Source: an uncultured bacterium (GTDB lineage Bacteria; Planctomycetota; Phycisphaerae; Phycisphaerales; SM1A02). Taken from it: DNA of 34,616 nucleotides. The notes beneath the pieces were generated by a model. It made no database searches. It saw only the letters and a list, made by a program, of their open reading frames with translations, and had not been told where the DNA came from. Position 1 is the first letter of the stretch. Each line of letters begins with the position of its first letter. Below, one piece after another: positions 8,438 to 18,854 of the stretch. The stretch covers positions 1 to 34,616 of the forward strand of contig CAIKXA010000079.1 of NCBI GenBank assembly GCA_903831295.1. The letters are read 5' to 3'. A program made the translations under genes and the position numbers.

Positions 8438-9043
8438 TTATTTTTTTACCAAGAAGTTTGGTCTTGCCTTTATGGCAATGTCAATATTCCGCTGAACTTC
8501 AGTTGAGGAAAGCACGCGGCTCCAAAGTTCTGTTGCCCCCGCATCGTCTCCACCAAGTGCTTTTGCTAGAGCTAGGTTTGCAACATATTCCGCATCGGCA
8601 GGATCCGTTGTGTAGGCCGCGGTAAAGTCGGATGTGGCGGCTGGAAGATCGGCCGCGAGCAAGTGACACATGCCGCGGTTGTTCATAAGAATGGGTTGGT
8701 TCGGAAATTTCTCAAGCCCGCGATTGAGCCACTTGATCGCTTCCGCATTGCGACCGTCGATCAACAACACTTCAGCGCCCTCGGTGTAGGTGCCTAGATA
8801 GTTTGGAAATTCCTGAAACATTCGATCCAAAATGTATCCAGCCTTGGCGGTTTCACCTTTGGCGGCAAGCACTCGCGCCGTAAGTTGCAGAGTTTCCGCG
8901 GAAGCAGGCTTCATGGCGCCGCCTTCAAACCAATCAGGGGCGGAAACTGCCGGCGTTGATTCACAACTCATTGGAGCAAGCAAAAGCATTGCGGCAGCGA
9001 TTGCCGTTGCGCCGCGTGCAAGCAACATTCGAAACTCGATCAT
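8438..9043 (-). CDS. tadD: TadD-like TPR lipoprotein
   Basis: 201 residues. A signal peptide ends in the lipobox APMSC (Cys near 27), so the protein is probably lipid-anchored. The rest is helical with at least three tetratricopeptide-type repeats, for example AGYILDRMFQEFPNYLGTY, EAIKWLNRGLEKFPNQPIL and ATSDFTAAYTTDPADAEYV. TadD proteins act as pilotins or assembly factors for the Tad outer-membrane secretin. It is the last gene of the operon. Its ATG overlaps the preceding stop codon by 4 nt (ATGA at 9040-9043), and GGAGG lies 7 nt upstream inside the previous gene, so translation is coupled. Context and the repeat pattern together support the name; sequence similarity alone would be weak. 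Confidence 0.72.
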   Translation of the reverse strand: MIEFRMLLARGATAIAAAMLLLAPMSCESTPAVSAPDWFEGGAMKPASAETLQLTARVLAAKGETAKAGYILDRMFQEFPNYLGTYTEGAEVLLIDGRNAEAIKWLNRGLEKFPNQPILMNNRGMCHLLAADLPAATSDFTAAYTTDPADAEYVANLALAKALGGDDAGATELWSRVLSSTEVQRNIDIAIKARPNFLVKK

Positions 9044-9735
9044 TGGTTGCCTCCACTAGAAGGCGTGCCATCACCTGTGTTATTTAAAGTCTTTCCACCA
9101 GATTGTTTCATTGGGGAATTGCGTATGTCAGCTTGAATGAGCAGTGCTTGATAGGTACTGCTTCCAATGCCGCCCGAGTCCTCATCGCCAATCTTCACGT
9201 TCGCCATGTCAATACCCGCCTCCACCAATGCCAAGCGGACTTGCTCAATTCTTGCGGCATACAAAGTGTCGCTGGCAATTCCTTTCGGCACGGAAATGCG
9301 ACCGCCTTCGCTGCGCAATGCCTCGGCCAGAATTGCCACATCGCGTTGACCAAGATTTGACAACTTCGCAGACTCTGGTTTGAAGTGAACTTCGTAGAGA
9401 GATCGTTGACGAATCACGCCCAAGCGAGTTTGGTCGTTGAATGGCTCGCGCACAAATTCTTTGTCCAAGGCATATTGCACTTCGTCTTTTATCACGACAC
9501 TATCCGTGTGTTTCTTGGGTGGAGTGCTACATGCAGCAAGTGAAAGAGTGGCAGCAACTAGCGTTGCCAAAGCAAGTGGCATGGGCAGATTGCGGGCAAC
9601 GCTAGGTATAAAATTGGAATTGATAGGGGCCTGCATCTGGTTGCGAATTTGGCTGCGAATTTGGGTTTGCATCAAGAACGCTTTCATGGTCTCTTTCATC
9701 GGCATCTTTGTGCTCTTGTGGATGAATTTCTTCAT
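9040..9735 (-). CDS. CpaD/OmpA-like Tad pilus lipoprotein
   Basis: About 231 residues from the start used here. A hydrophobic segment ending LSLAACS is a clear lipoprotein signal. The following region, with YEVHFKPESAKLSNLGQRD, a helix, then VPKGIASDTLYAARIEQVR and a strand at ANVKIGDED, has the beta-alpha-beta layout of CpaD/OmpA-like domains (an F-x-x-x-S-x-x-L motif followed by a helix and an R-rich segment). It would sit in the outer membrane or periplasm with the secretin. The tail is rich in Gly, Ser and Asn. The start is uncertain: several Met codons lie between 9780 and the signal, and the n-region is unusually long and rich in Gln, Arg and Lys, including an imprecise Q-I-R repeat. 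The start at 9735 avoids overlap with tadC. Confidence 0.6.
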   Translation of the reverse strand: MKKFIHKSTKMPMKETMKAFLMQTQIRSQIRNQMQAPINSNFIPSVARNLPMPLALATLVAATLSLAACSTPPKKHTDSVVIKDEVQYALDKEFVREPFNDQTRLGVIRQRSLYEVHFKPESAKLSNLGQRDVAILAEALRSEGGRISVPKGIASDTLYAARIEQVRLALVEAGIDMANVKIGDEDSGGIGSSTYQALLIQADIRNSPMKQSGGKTLNNTGDGTPSSGGNQ

Positions 9736-9748
9736 TTTTTTGGGCGAT

Positions 9749-10618
9749 TCAGCCCACGTTTGCCTCTTGAAGTGCTTCAAAGAGCATCAACAACAGCGGT
9801 CCAACAATCAGCAAAAGTGTGGCTGGCATCATCATGGCAGCAAGCGGAAAGAGCATTTTCACCGACGCTTGATGGGCGCGCTCCTCTAGAACTTGAAGTT
9901 CCTCATGGCGCAGGGAATCTGAAAGAACCTGGATCATGTGCGAAAGTCCAGTGCCAAATCGATCGGTTTGTTCAAGCAGTGCGCCCAAGGATCGGAATTC
10001 AGTCACGCCAGTTCGTTCGGTGGTGGCTTCTAGGGTTGTTCTCCATCCAGCGCCAAAGCCCACTTCTAGCTCAACCAACCTCATTTCTTGGGCTAGTGCG
10101 TCGCCACTGCCTCGCAAGGTTTTCGCCACGCCAAGCCACGCGGCAGAAAGTCCCAAGCCGCCTTGGACAGAGATCTGCAGCAAATCAAGCATGATCGGAA
10201 ATTCCGAAACAATATCTATGCGCCTCGTTGCTAGGCGCACTTCAAGCCATGAGTTTGGCAGCCACCAACCAATGGCGCCACCGATACAACCAACAAGAAC
10301 CGTGGGCGTAACGGAAGGCTCTTGGTCAAACGCCATCCAGCCCAATATCACCGCCCCCGATATCGTGAGCAGCACGTGTATGGCAACAAATTTCATTTGC
10401 TGAGTTGGTGACGCAAGGCCGGCGGTGGTGAGTCTGGTGCGCAGAGAAATTGGCAGCAATGAAGTTAGACCAAGCGGTTGCTCATCAAGTATCCAGCTTT
10501 CGGTTCCTGCGCCAGCAGTTGTGTTTGAACTGAATTGCGCGGGGGATCGACTTTTCAAGCCAAGTACCACCACGGCAACAAGGGTTACGAAGCCTGCGAT
10601 AAGCGGAAGCATGATCAT
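9749..10618 (-). CDS. tadC: TadC, inner-membrane platform protein
   Basis: About 289 residues of the type II secretion system F family. Hydrophobic segments occur near the N-terminus (LIAGFVTLVAVVVLGL), around residue 85, around residue 110 and at the C-terminus (LLLIVGPLLLMLFEAL). The conserved cytoplasmic helical domain includes FPIMLDLLQISVQGGLGLS and TGLSHMIQVLSDSLR, which are typical of TadC. Together with TadB it forms the platform on which the TadA ATPase drives pilus assembly. The start at 10618 overlaps the tadB stop as ATGA; an alternative ATG lies at 10630. The order tadA-tadB-tadC is the standard Tad order. Confidence 0.85.
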   Translation of the reverse strand: MIMLPLIAGFVTLVAVVVLGLKSRSPAQFSSNTTAGAGTESWILDEQPLGLTSLLPISLRTRLTTAGLASPTQQMKFVAIHVLLTISGAVILGWMAFDQEPSVTPTVLVGCIGGAIGWWLPNSWLEVRLATRRIDIVSEFPIMLDLLQISVQGGLGLSAAWLGVAKTLRGSGDALAQEMRLVELEVGFGAGWRTTLEATTERTGVTEFRSLGALLEQTDRFGTGLSHMIQVLSDSLRHEELQVLEERAHQASVKMLFPLAAMMMPATLLLIVGPLLLMLFEALQEANVG

Positions 10619-11469
10619 GTTGGCTTCCATTTTTTCTGCAATTCAATGCGGCCAAATCGCTGTATATAGGTGAGCCCAATCACTACTAGAACCACCGCGA
10701 CGCCCAAAATAGTGTTGCCTTCAGTTCGATCAAATAAAAATTCGCTATAGCCTTCCACCATCACGCACATCAAGGCAACCACGATCGGCGGAAGCACCGC
10801 AAGCACAATGGCCGCCGCGCGTGCGTAGGCAACAATTGCCTTGGAACGGCGCAGCACTCTTGTGCGATCAACTAAGGATCGGGCAAGTCGATCGGTGGTG
10901 TCGGCCAAATTACCACCGGCAGATATTTGAATGATCAACGCAAGGCCAAACGCACGCAGCGCGGACAGTGGCGATTGCAGCAACACGCGTCGAATTGCGA
11001 TCGCCAACTCTTCACCCATGGCTTCGCGTTGAATGATTTGTCGAAAGGCCATTTGCGTTTCGCCACGAGTTTCCACGGCAAGAATCTGCAGCATTCCCGA
11101 TAAAGGTATTCCGGCTCTCAATGAGCGGCTTGCGCCACCAACCGCTTCAATTGCGTATTGCTCTTCGAGCACCAGTTGTTTTTTTTGGTTGCGAATGCGC
11201 AGCATCTCGCTCACGCCAAAGCACAGCACGAAAGCGGCGATAGCCAATGTTGGACGTTCGGCAATCACCCAGATAAATCCCGCCAACACTAGACCAATGA
11301 CCAAAGGAAACGGCGAGCGCGTGTTCTTATCTTTGATTTTTTCCGGGGTCTCTACCGTGGCGGGAGCGGGCGCGTTGGCGCGGTTGCTCATTCGCCGCAT
11401 AAAAAATATCCACGCCGTCATAGCAATGGCCGCCGAAAGTATTGGCAGCAGCAGGGTCTGCAAGATCAT
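10615..11469 (-). CDS. tadB: TadB, inner-membrane platform protein
   Basis: 284 residues, type II secretion F family. There is an N-terminal membrane segment (PILSAAIAMTAWIFFM), a pair of hydrophobic segments near 55-90, the family domain (VGGASRSLRAGIPLSGML, then a segment ending in SAGGNLADTTDRLA) and two C-terminal membrane segments. The G-G-N-L motif in the second helical repeat is a hallmark of the family. It pairs with TadC in the inner membrane. Its ATG follows the tadA stop codon by 2 nt and its own stop overlaps the tadC start by 4 nt, so expression is coupled on both sides. Confidence 0.85.
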   Translation of the reverse strand: MILQTLLLPILSAAIAMTAWIFFMRRMSNRANAPAPATVETPEKIKDKNTRSPFPLVIGLVLAGFIWVIAERPTLAIAAFVLCFGVSEMLRIRNQKKQLVLEEQYAIEAVGGASRSLRAGIPLSGMLQILAVETRGETQMAFRQIIQREAMGEELAIAIRRVLLQSPLSALRAFGLALIIQISAGGNLADTTDRLARSLVDRTRVLRRSKAIVAYARAAAIVLAVLPPIVVALMCVMVEGYSEFLFDRTEGNTILGVAVVLVVIGLTYIQRFGRIELQKKWKPT

Positions 11470-11471
11470 TC

Positions 11472-12782
11472 CTATTTGTTCTCCGCTTGGAGCGGTCCAG
11501 CTGCAAATATTGCAGGGCTAAGCATAATTCCGCGAGATTGAAGGCGCTCTAAAAACCGTGGCTGAATTCCGGTGGCCACAAATTGGCCAAGGGCTTTGCC
11601 ATCACGCACGCCTTCAAGTTGAAATTTATGCAGCGTTGAGATTTTAATTCCATTTTCGTCGCTGCCGCACAACTCCACAATTTCGTTCACCACACGCCGG
11701 CCATCAGGTAGGCGCGCCAAATGCACCACAACGTCAATCGCTGATGCGATGTATTCACGAAGCACTCGAATGGGCATTTCAAAGCCACCCATGGAAAGCA
11801 TGGACTCAAGTCTGGTAAGCGTGTCTTTGGCGCTGTTGGCGTGCAAAGTGGTCATGGAGCCTTCATGGCCCGTATTCATTGCCTGCATCATGTCAAAAGT
11901 TTCTGCGCCGCGACATTCACCCACAATGATTCGGTCTGGTCGCATGCGAAGCGCGTTGCGAAGAAGTTCTCTCGTTTCGATGGCGCCAACGCCCTCAACA
12001 TTTGCAGCTCGCGACTCTAAACGAACAATGTGGCCGCCCTCGAGTCGTAGTTCCGCGGCATCTTCAATTGTGATAACGCGTTCAGTGGTGGGAATGGCCA
12101 CCGAAGCGGCATTGAGCATTGTTGTTTTTCCAACACCCGTACCACCCGAGAAGATCACATTCAGTCGGCCCGCCACCATGGCTCGAAGCAAATCCGCGGT
12201 GGCATTGGTGAGCGTTCCTATTTTGACAAGTCCATGTAATCCAAGCGCGATCTTTGGAAAGCGTCGGATGCTCAGTTGGGCGCCATCCACGGCAAGTGGG
12301 GGAATAATCGCATTGATGCGTGAACCATCGGATAGACGCGTGTCCACCATTGGACTGAGTTCGTCAATGCGTCGACCCGTGTTGCGAACCAAGCGTTGAA
12401 TCACATGCATCAAATGTGCCTCGTCGCGAAATTGCGCATCGCATTTTTCTAAACGACCTTGACGCTCAACGAAGACTCGATCTGGACTCACAACAAGAAT
12501 GTCGGTGATCGATTCGTTGCTGAGCAGTGGCTCAAGTGGTCCAAGTCCAAACATGTCATCCAACACGCCTTGCACAAGCCACGCTTGTTCTTGGTTGGAA
12601 ATAGCCGTTCCCTGCTCCAGCATTTTTCCCACGCGCTTGCTGCACTCGGCGACAAGTTGATCGCGGTTCATTTGGTCCGCGGCGGCAAAATCAAACGTGC
12701 TTAGAAGGCGCGTGTGCAGTTCACGTCGCAGTGTGGCAAGAGCCGCGGCGTTCATTGGGCTGACGATCTTCGCGTCACTCAC
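11472..12782 (-). CDS. tadA: TadA/CpaF pilus assembly ATPase
   Basis: 436 residues of the secretion ATPase (GspE/VirB11) superfamily. An N-terminal helical domain with LDDMFGLGPLEPLL and ITDILVV precedes the ATPase domain. The Walker A motif is FSGGTGVGKTTMLNA near residue 213-227, the Asp box is VITIEDAAELRLE, and RPDRIIVGECRGAETFDM with NTGHEGSMTTLHAN forms the Walker B and His box region. The motor powers both extension and retraction in Tad systems. Translation starts at GTG 12782, which overlaps the stop codon of the upstream fusion gene (GTGA), so it is coupled to secretin synthesis. All nucleotide-binding residues look intact. Confidence 0.93.
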   Translation of the reverse strand: MSDAKIVSPMNAAALATLRRELHTRLLSTFDFAAADQMNRDQLVAECSKRVGKMLEQGTAISNQEQAWLVQGVLDDMFGLGPLEPLLSNESITDILVVSPDRVFVERQGRLEKCDAQFRDEAHLMHVIQRLVRNTGRRIDELSPMVDTRLSDGSRINAIIPPLAVDGAQLSIRRFPKIALGLHGLVKIGTLTNATADLLRAMVAGRLNVIFSGGTGVGKTTMLNAASVAIPTTERVITIEDAAELRLEGGHIVRLESRAANVEGVGAIETRELLRNALRMRPDRIIVGECRGAETFDMMQAMNTGHEGSMTTLHANSAKDTLTRLESMLSMGGFEMPIRVLREYIASAIDVVVHLARLPDGRRVVNEIVELCGSDENGIKISTLHKFQLEGVRDGKALGQFVATGIQPRFLERLQSRGIMLSPAIFAAGPLQAENK

Positions 12783-15112
12783 GGGGTCTTGGTCTCGTTG
12801 GGAACCGTGGCTTGAGGCAAAGTTTCCAGCGTGGCGGGAATTTGATTTTCAGTTGGCGTGGTTGCAGATGGCTGCGGCTCCAGTGTGGCGGGAATTTCAT
12901 TCACTATCGGCGCGGTTGCAGATGGCTGCGGCTCCAGCGTGGCGGGAATTTCATTCACAATCGGCGTGGTTGCAGATGATTCGGGCTCAAGCGTGGCGGG
13001 CATTACATTGACAACCGGCGTGGTTGTTGACGGTTCGGGTTGCACTTTTTGTTCAACATCAACGCTTTGAGTTGCTGGATATATATCGGCGGCTGAAACT
13101 CGCGCGTCGTCAGGTCTGCGCAAAGCGCCTGGACCATGCAGTCCCGCCAAGCCAAGAGCTTTCAATCGCTCTAGGGGCTTGCCAGCTTTGGTTGCCCCAG
13201 CGAGAGAACCTTCCATAAACAATTCCCAATCATTCGGAGCTTCATGCAGATCGCCAGGCAGCGGACGTACGCTTCCATTGTCAAGTGGCTCCACCAATTC
13301 AGCAGTGACCATCACCACCAATTCGGTTTGATCCTCTTCATATCGAACGCTTCGAAATAGCACGCCAAGCACAGGAATATCTCCAAGAATTGGAACTTTT
13401 GAAACGCGTCCCTGTTCCTTGGTGCGAAGCAAGCCAGCCATTGCGAAAGATTGACCGCTTCCAAGTTCCACGGTGGTGCTAGATCTTCGCGTAATCACGC
13501 TTGGAACGGTGAATCCGTTTTGTCGCAGCGAACCAATTTCGCTTAACTCACTGACTTCTGGAGCCACTTCTAAACGAATGCGTCCTTGACCAAGCACTTC
13601 GGGGCGGAAGTTCAATCGCACACCAAACTCTTTGTACTCAATAGTCACCGAACTACTTGCGCCAGAGTTTTGCACAACCGGAATTGGAAACGCGCCTCCA
13701 ACTAAAAACGTGGCGCGCTCTCCGCTGATGGCAACCAAGTTGGGTTCCGCAAGCAAACGAACATATCGATTCTCAGAAAGAGCTTGAATATAAAATTCCA
13801 AATCAGAGCCTGGAACGCCTCCAAACAAAGTTACGGCGCTTGTCACTGCGTTCTTATCGAATCCAAAGTTTGGACTGGTCACGCCGCTTGCTTCAGTGGC
13901 GACGTTGCCACCGACGGTGGCTGTTTGTTGCGCGCCAGCGCCCGGCGAAATTGAGACTGGTTGGAATGGGGTTCCGCCAGGAGCCTGATAGCCGCCGAAA
14001 AATGAATTGCCACCAGCCACCGCGCCAAATGCCAACTCGCGTAATGCATATCGGCTTGCCTCGGCAATTCGCACACGCAATTGAACTTGTTGCACGCCTG
14101 CGATGTGAGTCAGATCAACCCACTTTAATCCCGAGGCAGTCATAAAGGCTTGGATTAAGTTTGCCGTGGCAAGGTCCGGCATGGTGCCACGCAGTGCTAC
14201 TGTTCCTTCAATTTCCTCAACCTGAAGATTCACGTTGAAGATGCGACCAATCTTGGACTCCAACATTTTTGTTTGCTTGGAAACAGAGGCGGCATACGTT
14301 GGCGCGGTATCAGTGGATTTTTTCGTGTCCTTCGCCACAGGATCTGCTGCGACTGGCGAGGCTTCATCTGGCCCAATACCCATGAGCGACTTTGTTGTTG
14401 CCGTGGCAAATTGACCCAAGTCTGGATTGGCGTCGTCATCGGATCGCAAAGTAATTCCAATTGTGCCGCGTGCGCTTGCAAGTTCAATTTGCGCAGCTTG
14501 TTCGGGAGTCACGGCTAGCGTTACAGAGAGTTTGCGTTGGCTTGTATTGTTGCGATCACTTGTTTCGTTTGGTTTGCCGCCAACGATTTCATCATTCACC
14601 GCAAGCACACGCATGCGTTCTTGAACTGTGCGTGTGATTTTTTCTCGCTGCGCATTTCCTTTTGCAGGCGCTTCCATAGTGGCAAGAATGTCCACAAGCG
14701 CTCCTGGGTAAAGCACCACGCCTGGAGCAGGATCGCGTAGCGACACAACGATCGCGCGGTAACCAGGTGGAATTTGGCTGGCAATCATGGATCCAGATCC
14801 TTGCACAATAAGATCCTCGGCCGTGATCACCTGTCCTTTTTTCATGGGCATCACCAAAGTGCGACCCACAAGAGATTGCATTGATGTAATCCCTTTTTTG
14901 CCATTGGCCATTGCTTTGGCGGGCACGGCAACAAGATCCTTTGCAACAAACTTGTGCCCTGCGGGGAATTCTTGGGCAGTGGCGATTATTTCACTAGAGC
15001 GTTGAACTTCAGAGCCGCCGCCAGCGACAAAGACAAATTGCACAAATACAGCCAGGAGGGCGGCAACCACCGCCATGACAAGGCCGATCATGATCAAACG
15101 AGTTGTGGACAT
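12779..15112 (-). CDS. CpaB-CpaC fusion: Tad assembly protein joined to the outer-membrane secretin
   Basis: 777 residues carrying two proteins that are normally separate. Residues about 1-250 are CpaB/RcpC: an N-terminal membrane segment (LIMIGLVMAVVAALLAVF), a SAF domain (EFPAGHKFVAKDLVAVP, GRTLVMPMKKGQVITAEDL) and the RcpC domain (IPPGYRAIVVSLRDP, PGALVDILATM, VTPEQAAQIELASARG). A polar linker (about 255-280) follows. Residues about 281-625 are the CpaC/RcpA secretin: a BON-like domain, QVQLRVRIAEASRYALREL, then the core ending in the signature VPILGDIPVLGVLF. The secretin half has no signal peptide of its own, which argues for a real fusion of adjacent cpaB and cpaC. A Pro/Thr-rich repeat tail closes the protein. 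The product would link the inner membrane to the outer-membrane pore unless the N-terminal segment is cleaved. The frame is uninterrupted, so a sequencing artefact is unlikely. Confidence 0.88.
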   Translation of the reverse strand: MSTTRLIMIGLVMAVVAALLAVFVQFVFVAGGGSEVQRSSEIIATAQEFPAGHKFVAKDLVAVPAKAMANGKKGITSMQSLVGRTLVMPMKKGQVITAEDLIVQGSGSMIASQIPPGYRAIVVSLRDPAPGVVLYPGALVDILATMEAPAKGNAQREKITRTVQERMRVLAVNDEIVGGKPNETSDRNNTSQRKLSVTLAVTPEQAAQIELASARGTIGITLRSDDDANPDLGQFATATTKSLMGIGPDEASPVAADPVAKDTKKSTDTAPTYAASVSKQTKMLESKIGRIFNVNLQVEEIEGTVALRGTMPDLATANLIQAFMTASGLKWVDLTHIAGVQQVQLRVRIAEASRYALRELAFGAVAGGNSFFGGYQAPGGTPFQPVSISPGAGAQQTATVGGNVATEASGVTSPNFGFDKNAVTSAVTLFGGVPGSDLEFYIQALSENRYVRLLAEPNLVAISGERATFLVGGAFPIPVVQNSGASSSVTIEYKEFGVRLNFRPEVLGQGRIRLEVAPEVSELSEIGSLRQNGFTVPSVITRRSSTTVELGSGQSFAMAGLLRTKEQGRVSKVPILGDIPVLGVLFRSVRYEEDQTELVVMVTAELVEPLDNGSVRPLPGDLHEAPNDWELFMEGSLAGATKAGKPLERLKALGLAGLHGPGALRRPDDARVSAADIYPATQSVDVEQKVQPEPSTTTPVVNVMPATLEPESSATTPIVNEIPATLEPQPSATAPIVNEIPATLEPQPSATTPTENQIPATLETLPQATVPNETKTP
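12782..13030 (-). repeat. 18-residue (54-bp) tandem repeats in the secretin tail
   Basis: The end of the fusion protein (residues 695-777) is four copies of an 18-residue unit of the form S-A-T-T-P-I-V-N-E-I-P-A-T-L-E-P-Q-P plus a partial fifth. Full units span 12815-13030. The two middle copies are nearly identical in DNA, while the outer ones have drifted. The composition suggests an extended, disordered Pro/Thr-rich arm. Confidence 0.9.
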
Positions 15113-15258: not shown

Positions 15259-15675
15259 TTACGGCTCGGGTTCCTTCACCATACTGGCTCGTCCTTTTAG
15301 AACGGCTGGCAGTGGCATCATGCGGCTAAGTCCAAGCAATTGCACATTTGAATAATCGGTCTGAATGAGAACGGTAATAGGGGTGCCAAGTGGTGCCGTA
15401 GATGGATCTTGCGGAGTGAGGGTAAGGGTTGCCCCCACAATTCCAGAATTTAAAAGGGCTGCATTTACCTTATTTTCCACGTCCGCAGATGTGGAACCGG
15501 ACAGTGCCGCAACCCGAGCACCAACGCGCGCGGCATGATCCATTTGGATTGATTTAAGGGCAACCCAGCCATATTCAAACCCTGCAAAAATCACTAAAAT
15601 CACCACTGGAAGGGCTATAATCATCTCGGCACTTTCAGAGCCGCGGCGAGCGTGATTGAATCGGTTCAATTTCAT
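15259..15675 (-). CDS. tadE: TadE-like pseudopilin
   Basis: 138 residues. A short basic N-terminus is followed by RRGSESAEMIIALPVVILV, which is the TadE hydrophobic segment. The sequence G-S-E-S-A-E places Glu five residues after the Gly, as expected for cleavage by the TadV peptidase. The motif is strikingly like the G-A-E-S-T-E of the pilins encoded downstream. The rest is a small periplasmic domain (DHAARVGARVAALSG and a beta-rich tail). The start at 15675 has a very good Shine-Dalgarno (GGAGGT, 5 nt away) and overlaps the stop codon of the peptidase gene by 4 nt. Upstream in-frame Met codons would lie inside the peptidase gene. Confidence 0.82.
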   Translation of the reverse strand: MKLNRFNHARRGSESAEMIIALPVVILVIFAGFEYGWVALKSIQMDHAARVGARVAALSGSTSADVENKVNAALLNSGIVGATLTLTPQDPSTAPLGTPITVLIQTDYSNVQLLGLSRMMPLPAVLKGRASMVKEPEP

Positions 15676-16319
15676 AGAACACCTCCAAATTGTTCCCAAT
15701 ACCACCATGCGCCAATAGTTCCTAGCAAGATGGACGGAGCATATGGAAACCATAACTTAGGGCGCGGCTGAGGTTCTGCTTGGTAGATGATATTTTCATC
15801 TTGATTTAACTTGAGGCCATTCAAAAATCGCAAAAAGCCCATTCTGGTCATCATAATTTGATGAAATATAGCGTTTGGAATTTGGGTAATCCCGCAGCGC
15901 TTCACAACAAGCCCCATTGCCGCGAAAAAACCTACTATCGCCACGCTTAATAACAGTACCGCCGAACATTGAAGCCCAAGCCATGATCCAAATGACATCA
16001 TTAATTTGGCATCGCCAGCGCCGCCACGGGCAAAAGCATATGCAGCTAGAAATACACCTCCAGCCACCCCGACTCCCTTCAATGAATCTACAACTCCAGG
16101 CATTCCAGCAACAATACCGCTGTAAGTAAGGCCTGCCACTAGTAGTGGCAAAGTGAGCCAATTTCGAATGTGCATAGTGCGTAGATCGGTAATGGTTGCC
16201 ACGATTCCGGCAGCGATGAGCAAGAGCCAGACCCATAATGAGGGTCCGTGCTCTGATTGCGCCACATTTCCTAGAAAAGGCACGTCAAAGCATAATAAAT
16301 TTAGAAATATCGAAGACAT
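15672..16319 (-). CDS. tadV: TadV/CpaA-type prepilin peptidase (A24)
   Basis: About 215 residues with several membrane segments. This is the short A24 form without the N-terminal methylase domain. The two aspartyl motifs are present: ITDLRTMHIRN (usual D-x-R-x-x-x-I-P-N, with Arg for Pro here) and GGAGDAKLMM (usual G-x-G-D-x-K-L). It would cleave the Flp and TadE precursors after their Gly. A C-terminal extension with PRPKLWFPYAPSILLG is unusual but still hydrophobic. The start at 16319 follows family N-termini and leaves about 80 nt to the divergent tadG-like gene. The longer frame upstream lies inside that gap and the divergent gene and is not used. Confidence 0.83.
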   Translation of the reverse strand: MSSIFLNLLCFDVPFLGNVAQSEHGPSLWVWLLLIAAGIVATITDLRTMHIRNWLTLPLLVAGLTYSGIVAGMPGVVDSLKGVGVAGGVFLAAYAFARGGAGDAKLMMSFGSWLGLQCSAVLLLSVAIVGFFAAMGLVVKRCGITQIPNAIFHQIMMTRMGFLRFLNGLKLNQDENIIYQAEPQPRPKLWFPYAPSILLGTIGAWWYWEQFGGVL

Positions 16320-16401
16320 TAATATTATGATCCTTGAGAGTATCTCACTGTGGTGAAATATCCTAACTAGTGTAGCAAAATCAACGTGGAACTTGAAATT
16401 T

Positions 16402-17685
16402 ATGCGTAATTCAACTGATCTTAAATGGTCCAATAGACGAGGTGCTTCCACGGCCACTGTGGTCATATTTCTGCCGGTTGTCTTAATGCTGGCGTGGTTT
16501 GGAGTGGAAATTGGATTGGCGGTTCGCTCGGTTACCAGTGCCAAGTTTGCCGCGGATGCCGTTGCTTTAGCCGCCGCGGCTCGATACAGGGACAGTGGCA
16601 ATGATGTCCGAGCCGATGCTCAAGCGGCGGCAGCGGGCAATAGGGGGCCAAATGGTCCGATTGTGGTCACTATTGGAAACGGTCCAGGTGGAGGAGGCGA
16701 TGTTGAATTTGGCCACTGGGACGATGAACTTAAGGTTTTTACCGTTGACTCAGATGGCGGACCCGCTGTTCGAGCGCGCGTGCGATTTGCGCCAGATCAT
16801 CCCAATGGTTCACCTGGCTTGGTGCTTGGAGGATTCTTTGGAACCTCGCCCATGGCATTTGAACGCGTGAGCATTGCTGTCTACAACCCTCCGCGCAATA
16901 CCACTTCACTGCTTTTGAATGCGGAAACATCAAGCGCGATCGCTTTAGATAATGATGCGCGGCTGGTTTCCAAGGGCGGCGTGTCGGTGCGATCAACCAA
17001 TGCGAATGCTTGCCAGATTTTGCCTAATGCATCAATGCAACTTACTGTGTTGCGCCTGTCAGGAACAATAGATCCACAAAGCAAGTTGGCTGTGGACGGC
17101 GTTGTGGAGGAGTCTGAAGTGATTCCTGCCGATCCCATGAATGCAATAGATTTACCGACTTTTGTAGTGCCTATAGAGGAACTTCCAGAAATCGATCATG
17201 ACAATATTGGCGTGACTCATGTTGCTCCAGGCGTGCATGGGTTTCTGCAAGCCAATGGTGGAACTGTGATTCTTGACCCGGGTCTACATCAATTTGTGAA
17301 AGGGATATTTATTCGCGGATCTTGCAATTTGCAACTTGATCATGCAACAATTCAATTTGCAAATTCAGCAGTGTTGAGAGTGGCCCAAAGTAGTGTGATG
17401 GAAGGAACGCCCGCGGACGGAATTGGGGATTGGTCTGGATATTGGTTTATTCAACGGGGCGCAACAGTGCCCTGGGTATTAACTGGCTCAGCGATAGTTA
17501 ATTTTGAGTCGCGTTGCTACGCCCCCGATACGGCGCTTCAGATGGAATCGAATGCCCAAGCACGTTTGGGAACAGCGATTCTTGGGTCTGTAGAGGAGCA
17601 TGATTCAGCTCTTCTAGAATTCACAGATGTAATAGATGAACTCACTACTCAAGCGATGCCCGGACGGGCGCGTTTGGTACGTTAA
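16402..17685 (+). CDS. TadG-like pilus-associated protein
   Basis: 427 residues. The N-terminus, WSNRRGASTATVVIFLPV followed by a membrane segment and a helix rich in Ala (FAADAVALAAAARYRD), is the TadG/TadE_N pattern. The position after Gly reads A-S-T-A-T, so the Glu needed for prepilin peptidase cleavage is absent and the protein probably stays anchored. The large exported region is beta-rich with no von Willebrand A motif that I can find. From about residue 165 it repeats short strands with the look of a right-handed beta-helix (ILPNASMQLTVLRLSG, HGFLQANGGTVILDPG, GSCNLQLDHATIQFAN). It is divergent from the peptidase gene. TTG at 16393 in the same frame is an alternative start. It might act as a surface tip or adhesin; this is inference. 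Confidence 0.65.
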   Translation: MRNSTDLKWSNRRGASTATVVIFLPVVLMLAWFGVEIGLAVRSVTSAKFAADAVALAAAARYRDSGNDVRADAQAAAAGNRGPNGPIVVTIGNGPGGGGDVEFGHWDDELKVFTVDSDGGPAVRARVRFAPDHPNGSPGLVLGGFFGTSPMAFERVSIAVYNPPRNTTSLLLNAETSSAIALDNDARLVSKGGVSVRSTNANACQILPNASMQLTVLRLSGTIDPQSKLAVDGVVEESEVIPADPMNAIDLPTFVVPIEELPEIDHDNIGVTHVAPGVHGFLQANGGTVILDPGLHQFVKGIFIRGSCNLQLDHATIQFANSAVLRVAQSSVMEGTPADGIGDWSGYWFIQRGATVPWVLTGSAIVNFESRCYAPDTALQMESNAQARLGTAILGSVEEHDSALLEFTDVIDELTTQAMPGRARLVR

Positions 17686-17811: not shown

Positions 17812-18000
17812 TTACTGCTGTCCGCCAGTGCTGGTTGTATTGAATTCTGTGATCATCTCGGCATTCTTGCTTTGGATCTTGTCTCGAAGAGACTTAGCTG
17901 AAGCAATCGCACCACCGGCGACCACAAGTACGGAAACGGCCAACTCGGTGCTCTCGGCGCCACGCTCGTCGTTAATGAAGTTTTTAATCCAGTTTGTCAT
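17812..18000 (-). CDS. flp: Flp-type pilin, copy 1
   Basis: 62-residue precursor. A leader MTNWIKNFINDERG is followed by AESTELAVSVLVVAGGAI, the hydrophobic Flp pilin core. Cleavage by TadV after Gly14 would leave a mature N-terminus with Glu at position 5, as in other prepilins. The usual following Tyr is replaced by Leu. The short C-terminal part (SKNAEMITEFNTTSTGGQQ) is polar. It is the structural subunit of the Tad pilus. AAAGGA lies 7 nt before ATG. This copy differs from the other two at Ser37, Ile50 and the last residues, so it may give pili with a different exposed end. Confidence 0.9.
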   Translation of the reverse strand: MTNWIKNFINDERGAESTELAVSVLVVAGGAIASAKSLRDKIQSKNAEMITEFNTTSTGGQQ

Positions 18001-18239: not shown

Positions 18240-18428
18240 TTACGGATTGGCGCCAGTGCCAGTTGTGTTGAACTCTGTGAGCATTTCGGCATTCTTGCTT
18301 TGGATCTTGTCTCGAAGAGCCTTAGCTGAAGCAATCGCACCACCGGCAACTACAAGTACGGAAACGGCCAACTCGGTGCTCTCGGCGCCACGCTCGTCAT
18401 TAATGAAGTTTTTAATCCAGTTTGTCAT
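18240..18428 (-). CDS. flp: Flp-type pilin, copy 2
   Basis: 62 residues with the same leader, cleavage Gly and AESTEL core as copy 1. It differs from copy 3 only at residue 2 (Thr here, Lys there) and from copy 1 at a few C-terminal positions (the end is TTGTGANP). Start ATG 18428 has the same AAAGGATACTCAC spacing as copy 1. The open frame extends 13 codons further upstream without support. The Tad peptidase, platform and ATPase genes are encoded in the neighbouring operon on the same strand. Confidence 0.9.
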   Translation of the reverse strand: MTNWIKNFINDERGAESTELAVSVLVVAGGAIASAKALRDKIQSKNAEMLTEFNTTGTGANP

Positions 18429-18522
18429 GTGAGTATCCTTTCTAAGGTTTTTCCAATTTGCCGCCAAGCACCTTGCTTAACTGTTATTGGTTACCAACAA
18501 CTTATGATTCATAAATTTGAAT

Positions 18523-18665: not shown

Positions 18666-18854
18666 TTACGGATTGGCGCCAGTGCCAGTTGTATTGAACT
18701 CTGTGAGCATTTCGGCATTCTTGCTTTGGATCTTGTCTCGAAGAGCCTTAGCTGAAGCAATCGCACCACCGGCGACTACAAGTACGGAAACGGCCAACTC
18801 GGTGCTCTCGGCGCCGCGCTCGTCATTGATGAAGTTTTTAATCCAGTTTTTCAT
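18666..18854 (-). CDS. flp: Flp-type pilin, copy 3
   Basis: 62 residues, identical to copy 2 except Lys at residue 2. The leader, the cleavage Gly14 and the hydrophobic core are intact, so the protein should be a working pilin. The ribosome binding site has lost one G: the other two copies have AAAGGATAC, this one AAAGATAC. The TTATAGGACA half of the upstream element is also missing. Expression is therefore likely to be lower than that of the other copies or differently controlled. The 267 nt before it, up to the GTPase stop codon, are A/T-rich and hold no gene. Confidence 0.9.
   Translation of the reverse strand: MKNWIKNFINDERGAESTELAVSVLVVAGGAIASAKALRDKIQSKNAEMLTEFNTTGTGANP

Follow-up and report, generated by a model that had tools for sequence, protein, structure and literature searches.

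A CpaB-CpaC fusion in planctomycete Tad loci lacks the parts through which ring and secretin dock in Pseudomonas

According to PMC12307814, it was an open question until 2025 how Tad machines connect their inner- and outer-membrane parts. In Pseudomonas aeruginosa, these parts are the separate proteins RcpC, which forms a ring of 12 subunits, and RcpA, a secretin of 13 or 14 subunits (PMC10499894). They dock via the C-terminal part of RcpC and the N-domain of RcpA, and the modelled interface pairs an RcpC hairpin with this N-domain (PMC12307814). When the hairpin is truncated on the chromosome, Tad-dependent biofilm formation and aggregation are lost; in copurification, RcpA binding is retained without the hairpin, and the L3 linker is required because the ring needs L3 (PMC12307814).

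The Caulobacter CpaB-CpaI-CpaC system is the same kind of machine with the same need to link inner and outer membranes, and CpaI is modelled as the bridge (PMC13170226). In Myxococcus, KilC, a Tad-like secretin, is reportedly devoid of an N0 domain, and the CpaB homologue KilB is encoded separately in another gene cluster, with no fusion described (PMC8460266). An inner-membrane protein is also aligned on the secretin N-terminal domain in GspC-GspD of type II secretion and in PilP-PilQ of type IVa pili, although these connectors are non-covalent and belong to other protein families (PMC10499894). In the planctomycete locus described here, by contrast, the counterparts of RcpC and RcpA are encoded as a single chain.

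The window, which is the whole stretch of DNA analysed (34,616 nucleotides from an uncultured member of the Planctomycetota), carries a Tad (type IVc) set in one locus, comprising a TadA ATPase, two platform proteins, a prepilin peptidase, a TadE-like pilin and a secretin:

8438..9043, minus strand: TPR protein (TPR families; translation) at the position of the TadD pilotin, whose role it may fill
9040..9780, minus strand: lipoprotein with weak CpaD similarity (lipobox-like SLAAC by eye; PF09476 under the cut-off)
9749..10630, minus strand: TadC-type platform protein (PF00482)
10615..11469, minus strand: TadB-type platform protein (PF00482)
11472..12782, minus strand: CpaF/TadA ATPase (PF00437, 1.3e-63), the start of which overlaps the stop of the fusion gene by 4 bases
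15112..12779, minus strand: cpaB-cpaC fusion gene (protein P0001, 777 amino acids, ATG start, TGA stop)
15259..15753, minus strand: TadE-like minor pilin (PF07811, 4.9e-10)
15672..16601, minus strand: A24 prepilin peptidase (PF01478, 1.9e-14)

A preliminary description of this DNA had reported CpaB and CpaC as one continuous protein encoded at 12779-15112. These coordinates are correct, but no strand was given; the frame lies on the minus strand, and the plus-strand frame over the same interval has many stops. The continuity itself holds, as no stop separates the two halves in any of the 12 genomes that carry the fusion. The parts of the fused protein are as follows:

15023..15106, minus strand: predicted N-terminal membrane helix, a putative CpaB-type anchor, residues 3-30 (AlphaFold2 helix; best 19-residue hydropathy 3.08)
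14810..14992, minus strand: D1, a SAF-like domain, residues 41-101 (sub-cut-off Pfam SAF; AlphaFold2 strands)
14444..14785, minus strand: D2, the RcpC domain, residues 110-223 (PF16976; 9gzr RcpC by sequence and fold)
14291..14440, minus strand: disordered linker, residues 225-274 (pLDDT about 40)
14102..14290, minus strand: helix 275-292 and a BON/N3-like domain to residue 337 (AlphaFold2; alignment to the CpaC of relatives)
13292..14089, minus strand: secretin core, residues 342-607 (PF00263; 8odn RcpA by sequence and fold)
13133..13291, minus strand: conserved C-terminal region at the S-domain position, residues 608-660 (conserved in alignment A2), which by analogy with RcpA may bind a pilotin (PMC10499894)
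12782..13096, minus strand: Pro/Thr-rich tail of low complexity with repeats, residues 673-777 (modelled as disordered by AlphaFold2)

Both halves are recognized independently. Pfam places RcpC (PF16976) at residues 110-223 (9.2e-19; 67.9 bits against a cut-off of 28.8) and Secretin (PF00263) at residues 444-607 (3.6e-43; 147.5 bits against 27.5), and NCBIfam TIGR03177 (pilus_cpaB) spans residues 9-274 (1.4e-36; 126.1 against 71). The SAF match at residues 51-101 falls under the Pfam cut-off (E 0.0074) but exceeds it in the fused relatives L057 and L072, and BON has no Pfam match in P0001. Among PDB sequences, the top match is 8odn RcpA (residues 428-621, 1e-44), and 9gzr RcpC matches residues 75-228 (5.7e-5). 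An AlphaFold2 model of the monomer (mean pLDDT 69, pTM 0.42) contains no domain beyond the anchor, D1, D2, the disordered linker, the helix, BON and the secretin. Its Foldseek matches include 8odn RcpA at rank 3 and 9gzr RcpC at rank 5, and the two best are an Acidithiobacillus caldus secretin. Both bodies of the Pseudomonas apparatus, the RcpC dodecamer and RcpA, are thus represented, in the order anchor-D1-D2 and then secretin.

Searches of 181 genomes from the family of the window yielded 27 with RcpC. Twelve of these have the fused frame (seven in genus g1 and five in genus g41), whereas 15 are unfused, including members of both g1 and g41; in 14 of the latter a separate cpaC adjoins cpaB. 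In the 15th, G273 (locus L059), CpaB lacks the hairpin motif discussed below, and no secretin was detected on the 3.6-kb contig. In samples of the order (301 genomes, 42 with RcpC) and the phylum (392 genomes, 109 with RcpC), no frame longer than 556 amino acids occurred outside g1 and g41 among the matches listed. The architecture, which the preliminary description had suggested mapping across the Planctomycetota, is therefore found in these two genera only, among the matches listed for the family, order and phylum samples. Among 849 plasmid records with a match, none covered 80% of the query at a single location. No description of a CpaB-CpaC fusion was found in published open-access papers, as judged mostly from titles and abstract starts among the matches listed.

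The preliminary description had also called the secretin complete, which proved incorrect: the N-domain (PF13629), the secretin signal peptide and the C-terminal hairpin motif of CpaB are all missing. Its observation that there is no second signal peptide was borne out, given the continuous frame and a linker that, by eye, has no hydrophobic stretch. That fusion and loss of the docking parts coincide, and that the fusion seems to have arisen twice, lay beyond what that description could show. Within the family, unfused pairs such as those of L065, L066, L117 and L115 share the locus order and have clearly homologous halves, but there the two genes are adjacent, and the position of linker 225-274 is occupied by the CpaB tail with the hairpin motif, a stop codon, the CpaC signal peptide and the N-domain. 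The distance from D2 to BON is 52-63 amino acids in fused proteins versus 181-251 in nine unfused pairs. Pfam finds PF13629 in 8/8 unfused CpaC proteins versus 0/3 fused ones.

The hairpin motif, W...V.[RKG], occurs at the C terminus of 17 of 18 unfused CpaB proteins (14 from the family, two from the order, one from the class and one unplaced), and the 18th reads WEVMIMR; the W is invariant in the 18 rows of alignment A4. It is found in none of the 12 fused linkers, which have no W at all. In an AlphaFold2 model of an unfused CpaB, the hairpin consists of strands 278-285 and 288-295 (pLDDT about 55-61). This motif is not a universal feature of CpaB, however, because it is missing from 21 further proteins (20 across the phylum and that of L059/G273 in the same family). 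Nor is loss of an N-terminal domain tied to fusion, since KilC is described as lacking N0 while KilB remains separate.

We consider it likely, with a probability of roughly 0.75, that the fused gene encodes one chain that is both the inner-membrane-anchored ring protein (CpaB/RcpC) and the secretin (CpaC/RcpA), with the covalent linker replacing docking. The simplest origin would be an in-frame deletion between adjacent genes that took the C-terminal hairpin and stop codon of CpaB together with the signal peptide and N-domain of CpaC. Because the hairpin and N-domain belong to the ring-secretin joint in Pseudomonas, a non-covalent connection would have given way to a flexible linker of 52-63 residues. 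The N-terminal helix would stay uncleaved in the inner membrane, D1-D2 would continue to form the periplasmic ring, and the linker would run upward across from this ring to the BON/secretin half, which would be inserted in the outer membrane with the aid of the lipoprotein and TPR protein of the locus. The alignment ring would then be continuous with the secretin at a forced 1:1 ratio, as ring and pore subunit numbers must be equal if they share one covalent chain. The ring itself is in doubt if the fused linkers have no L3-like element. This arrangement also poses a targeting problem, because the secretin would have to arrive at the outer membrane with its N terminus still tied to the inner one.

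On balance, we also favour a stronger proposal, in which the two halves of the docking interface were removed twice independently and the tether leaves every secretin subunit anchored in the inner membrane and spanning the envelope, with equal numbers of ring and pore subunits and the docking checkpoint bypassed. A natural experiment would seemingly have been done twice, whereby the hairpin and N-domain were lost and the genes remained under selection with a linker instead. The docking model thereby gains independent support from evolution, and the role of the N-domain is narrowed, as it seems not to be needed after ring and pore have been joined. Moreover, the 12:13 mismatch of ring and secretin proposed for Pseudomonas becomes directly testable; if the proposal is true, the mismatch is broken here, and the proposed docking-dependent assembly checkpoint is circumvented.

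Cutting of the fused product within the linker would instead separate the CpaB ring from the secretin, and the fusion would serve only to co-produce and co-export them at 1:1. Being variable in sequence and modelled as disordered, the linker may be accessible to proteases, a secretin half exported behind CpaB would need no signal peptide of its own, and the N0-less secretin of Myxococcus reportedly works unfused (PMC8460266). However, cutting would leave both halves without the docking element of their unfused relatives, in both fused groups, and the linkers of g1 and g41 differ and by eye share no cleavage motif. We regard this explanation as unlikely.

The preliminary description had left two topologies side by side, bridging through an uncleaved anchor and a cleaved N-terminal signal. 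The second, by which the fused subunit would reside only in the periplasm and outer membrane, draws on residues compatible with the -3/-1 rule behind the helix in g1 proteins (e.g. VAG|G), but we judge it improbable. The modelled helix is 28 residues long, and the N termini of the 12 fused proteins reach a best hydropathy over 19 residues of 2.63-3.08, which exceeds the values of nine CpaC signal peptides (1.04-2.17) and falls within or above the range of six full-length unfused CpaB proteins (2.18-2.91). Furthermore, P. aeruginosa RcpC retains its N-terminal helix and has been demonstrated experimentally to be membrane-anchored by it (PMC12307814). Bridging from inner to outer membrane through an uncleaved N-terminal anchor is accordingly the topology that hydropathy, the model and the RcpC precedent lead us to favour.

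Still less probable is that a third protein bridges ring and secretin, with the fusion as a side effect. The precedent is CpaI, the modelled CpaB-CpaC bridge of Caulobacter, the fold of which resembles the RcpA N-domain (PMC13170226). In a genome-wide search of 22 genomes, PF13629 scored over the cut-off in 10/10 unfused genomes versus 0/12 fused drafts, although a protein of like structure whose sequence has diverged would escape such a search. P0001 itself has no match and none occurs elsewhere in its genome, which is 84% complete; two sub-cut-off scraps in the fused genome G007 are the only traces noted. Relocation of the N-domain to a separate protein was considered and set aside on the same search, as no such protein was found in the 12 fused genomes.

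That the frame is an assembly artefact, or an accidental fusion in a decaying locus, can be dismissed even though all 12 fused genomes are drafts (64-92% complete; those of known type are metagenome or uncultured-bacterium bins), since they represent two genera, neighbouring genes are intact and dN/dS is below 1 throughout. Specifically, dN/dS is 0.02-0.50 in every segment, including the linker, across six pairs, in which linker identity is 54-88%. The fusion is real, and reflects neither chance nor an assembly error, because it recurs in 12 genomes of two genera with every segment under such constraint.

The fusion most likely arose twice, judging from the phylogenies, because both genera hold unfused members and the AU test rejects a single fused clade. 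With nine Tad genes, unfused G722 is sister to the fused g41 members (100) and unfused G003/G010 to those of g1 (95); G003 and G722 have no RecA or rpoB row, and their genus is the label of the classification tool. One fused clade is rejected with the nine Tad genes (p 6e-4), with cpaBC alone (8e-4) and with the flanks alone (9e-4), all three being quick trees with SH-aLRT support only. Rejection also follows from RecA (p 6.7e-9) and from rpoB plus RecA (2.7e-5), in trees that include 10 of the 12 fused genomes, as G002 and G719 have no usable marker. G003/G010 group with fused g1 at 93 on cpaBC alone, and on the flanks alone G675 and G308 join them in a group that is not resolved further (90), subject to a long-branch warning.

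A single origin was weakly favoured by an initial concatenated tree with 17 rows, where the fused proteins formed one weak clade (54/29) and g1 as one clade was not rejected (p 0.463). It was rejected after the addition of nine more family loci (including G720 and G722), and also by the RecA/rpoB trees. A stop in related genomes had been named beforehand as a possible sign against the fusion; fused genomes have none, whereas near relatives keep two adjacent genes. On the trees, these two-gene relatives appear as the older state and not as a correction of the fused frame.

Several smaller features of the proteins and loci were also recorded. The Pro/Thr-rich tail is shorter in the other fused proteins except those of L073 and L074 (alignment A2). 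An apparently invariant W629 in the same alignment is a chance pairing of columns and was disregarded. Flp-type pilins upstream of the fusion were recognized by reading translations, and the two that were checked have no NCBIfam match. The order A24-TadE-[cpaB-cpaC]-cpaF-tadB-tadC-lipoprotein-TPR is common to fused and unfused loci on sufficiently long contigs, and in several of the unfused loci cpaF is preceded by a gap.

A single open frame of 777 amino acids on the minus strand (15112..12779) encodes both a CpaB and a CpaC part, and thus the uninterrupted frame proposed for this interval in the preliminary description is borne out. The fused protein is organized as follows:

Residues 3-30: hydrophobic N-terminal helix, the predicted anchor (AlphaFold2)
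After this helix: D1, SAF-like domain (AlphaFold2; Pfam below its cut-off)
Residues 110-223: RcpC domain (D2), PF16976 (Pfam)
Residues 231-273: disordered linker between the RcpC and BON-like domains (AlphaFold2)
Residues 275-292: helix (AlphaFold2)
Up to residue 337: BON-like domain (AlphaFold2)
Residues 342-607: secretin region (AlphaFold2), with PF00263 at 444-607
C-terminal: Pro/Thr-rich repeated tail, disordered in the AlphaFold2 model

The profile TIGR03177 (pilus_cpaB) scores above its cut-off over residues 9-274, and each half of the protein has a sequence match of solved structure: 9gzr (RcpC) and 8odn (RcpA). The stop of the fusion and the CpaF start share four bases; the locus is transcribed in the order A24 peptidase, TadE-like, fusion, CpaF, TadB, TadC, lipoprotein and TPR protein. 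The tail (12782-13096) carries an imperfect repeat of ~18 residues (like IPATLEPQPSATTPIVNE), which also occurs at loci L073 and L074; tails of the other fused proteins are shorter. Upstream of the Tad operon, three near-identical tandem genes (17812-18000, 18240-18467 and 18666-18854, minus strand), apparently recent duplications, encode small products that are Flp-pilin-like as judged from their translations.

Within the window's family, RcpC was found in 27 of 181 genomes searched. Twelve are fused, 14 have separate neighbouring genes, and in one (G273) a secretin was not detected on the short contig.

Fused and unfused genomes of two genera, g1 and g41
Fused, g1: G000, G002, G004, G007, G011, G013, G015
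Fused, g41: G229, G263, G282, G719, G724
Unfused, g1: G003, G010
Unfused, g41: G720, G722

Among the matches listed (for the phylum, the stronger ones), no further frame long enough for a fusion was present in samples of the order (301 genomes, 42 with RcpC) or the phylum (392 genomes, 109 with RcpC). A limited search of open-access literature, including passages of PMC6668835, yielded no account of a CpaB-CpaC fusion. One unfused CpaC (G720, L115:5702-7456) carries two tandem BON-like domains, seen as two profile matches. Between cpaC and cpaF, several unfused loci (L061, L063, L067, L068, L075) have a gap of ~1-1.3 kb, about as long as a CpaE/TadZ gene; it is missing from the window and from some unfused loci, and therefore does not track fusion.

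In Pseudomonas aeruginosa, an N-terminal helix anchors RcpC in the membrane, 12 subunits form a periplasmic ring, and RcpC attaches to the secretin RcpA at the latter's N-domain (PMC12307814). In the published model the C-terminal hairpin of RcpC completes the N-domain sheet, and hairpin truncation abolishes function in cells, although copurification depended not on the hairpin but on the L3 linker, which the ring requires (PMC12307814). RcpA itself is shown to assemble from 13 or 14 subunits, with one flexible N-domain and the TadD pilotin (PMC10499894).

Both parts of this modelled joint are absent from the fused proteins. CpaC of unfused relatives opens with a signal-peptide-like segment followed by the N-domain (PF13629), which Pfam recognized in all eight unfused CpaC submitted versus none of three fused proteins; the secretin is therefore not complete, contrary to the preliminary description. 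Genome-wide, PF13629 exceeded its cut-off in 10/10 unfused genomes versus 0/12 fused genomes, the latter being drafts (64-92% complete). In fused G007, two fragments scoring under the cut-off lie in short open frames (34 and 41 amino acids). At the C-terminal end of unfused CpaB (14 genomes of the family, G052 and G235 of the order, G671 of the class and unplaced G675), the strict pattern W-x-x-x-V-x-[RKG] occurs in 17 of 18 proteins and the tryptophan in all 18, whereas neither the motif nor any tryptophan was found in the 12 fused linkers. AlphaFold2 predicts a hairpin at this site in L065 CpaB (278-285/288-295), at low confidence (pLDDT ~55-61). The pattern was not found in 21 other CpaB examined (20 from across the phylum and one of the window's family), and the docking element may therefore be a different one in other lineages. 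Fused proteins have 52-63 residues between the end of D2 and the BON domain, versus 181-251 in nine unfused pairs (CpaB tail plus CpaC N-terminal part, with starts picked by eye). In the window's relatives, fusion would thus have removed both partners of the modelled ring-secretin joint, with a peptide link taking their place. Domain loss is also possible without fusion, since the Myxococcus Tad-like secretin KilC is said to lack the N0 domain, and KilC and the CpaB homologue are encoded separately (PMC8460266).

Two independent fusions most likely produced these proteins (probability about 0.9), as argued by the trees, topology tests and linkers together. Single-gene trees recover fused g1 and fused g41 as two well-supported clades without resolving how these relate, and a first concatenation does not resolve it either. 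Once nine further loci are added, fused g41 has unfused G722 as its sister (100) and fused g1 has unfused G003/G010 (95); forcing all fused proteins into one clade lowers the log-likelihood by 96.75 (AU p 6e-4). A single fused clade is also rejected with cpaBC alone (p 8e-4) and with flanking genes alone (p 9e-4), so the pattern does not call for local gene exchange. G722 remains next to fused g41 in both of these reduced sets (99 and 99), while G003/G010 join fused g1 with cpaBC alone (93) and belong, with the flanks alone, to an unresolved group that also holds G675 and G308 (90). For the 10 fused genomes having a marker, RecA and rpoB+RecA trees place each within its own genus, adjoining unfused G010, G720 and RcpC-less members; a single fused clade has p 6.7e-9 (RecA) and 2.7e-5 (rpoB+RecA). 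The g41 linkers retain a G(L/V/C)D(S/T)A remnant that resembles the end of the N-domain in CpaC; g1 linkers lack it, which fits different break points in the two genera.

The fused protein appears to be in use, because dN/dS is 0.02-0.50 in all segments, linker included (six pairs, some with saturated dS values near 2). An AlphaFold2 monomer built from a 67-row alignment has mean pLDDT 69 and pTM 0.42; by Foldseek the two top matches are an Acidithiobacillus caldus secretin, with RcpA in third place and RcpC in fifth. In hydrophobicity the N-terminal segment matches CpaB anchors and exceeds CpaC signal peptides. In the simplest working model, whose topology we infer from sequence, an alignment ring anchored in the inner membrane would be continuous with the outer-membrane secretin, each chain running from one into the other. 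Tad systems are described as connecting the two membrane complexes in diverse ways, and in Caulobacter CpaI is modelled as the bridge (PMC13170226).

Elsewhere in the phylum, CpaB adjoins a CpaF frame at seven loci (L103, L106, L108, L110, L111, L113, L114), where the profile used detected no nearby secretin. These CpaF frames, measured stop to stop, have ~130-160 residues ahead of the ATPase profile; Myxococcus KilF is described as having an FHA domain ahead of its ATPase (PMC8460266).
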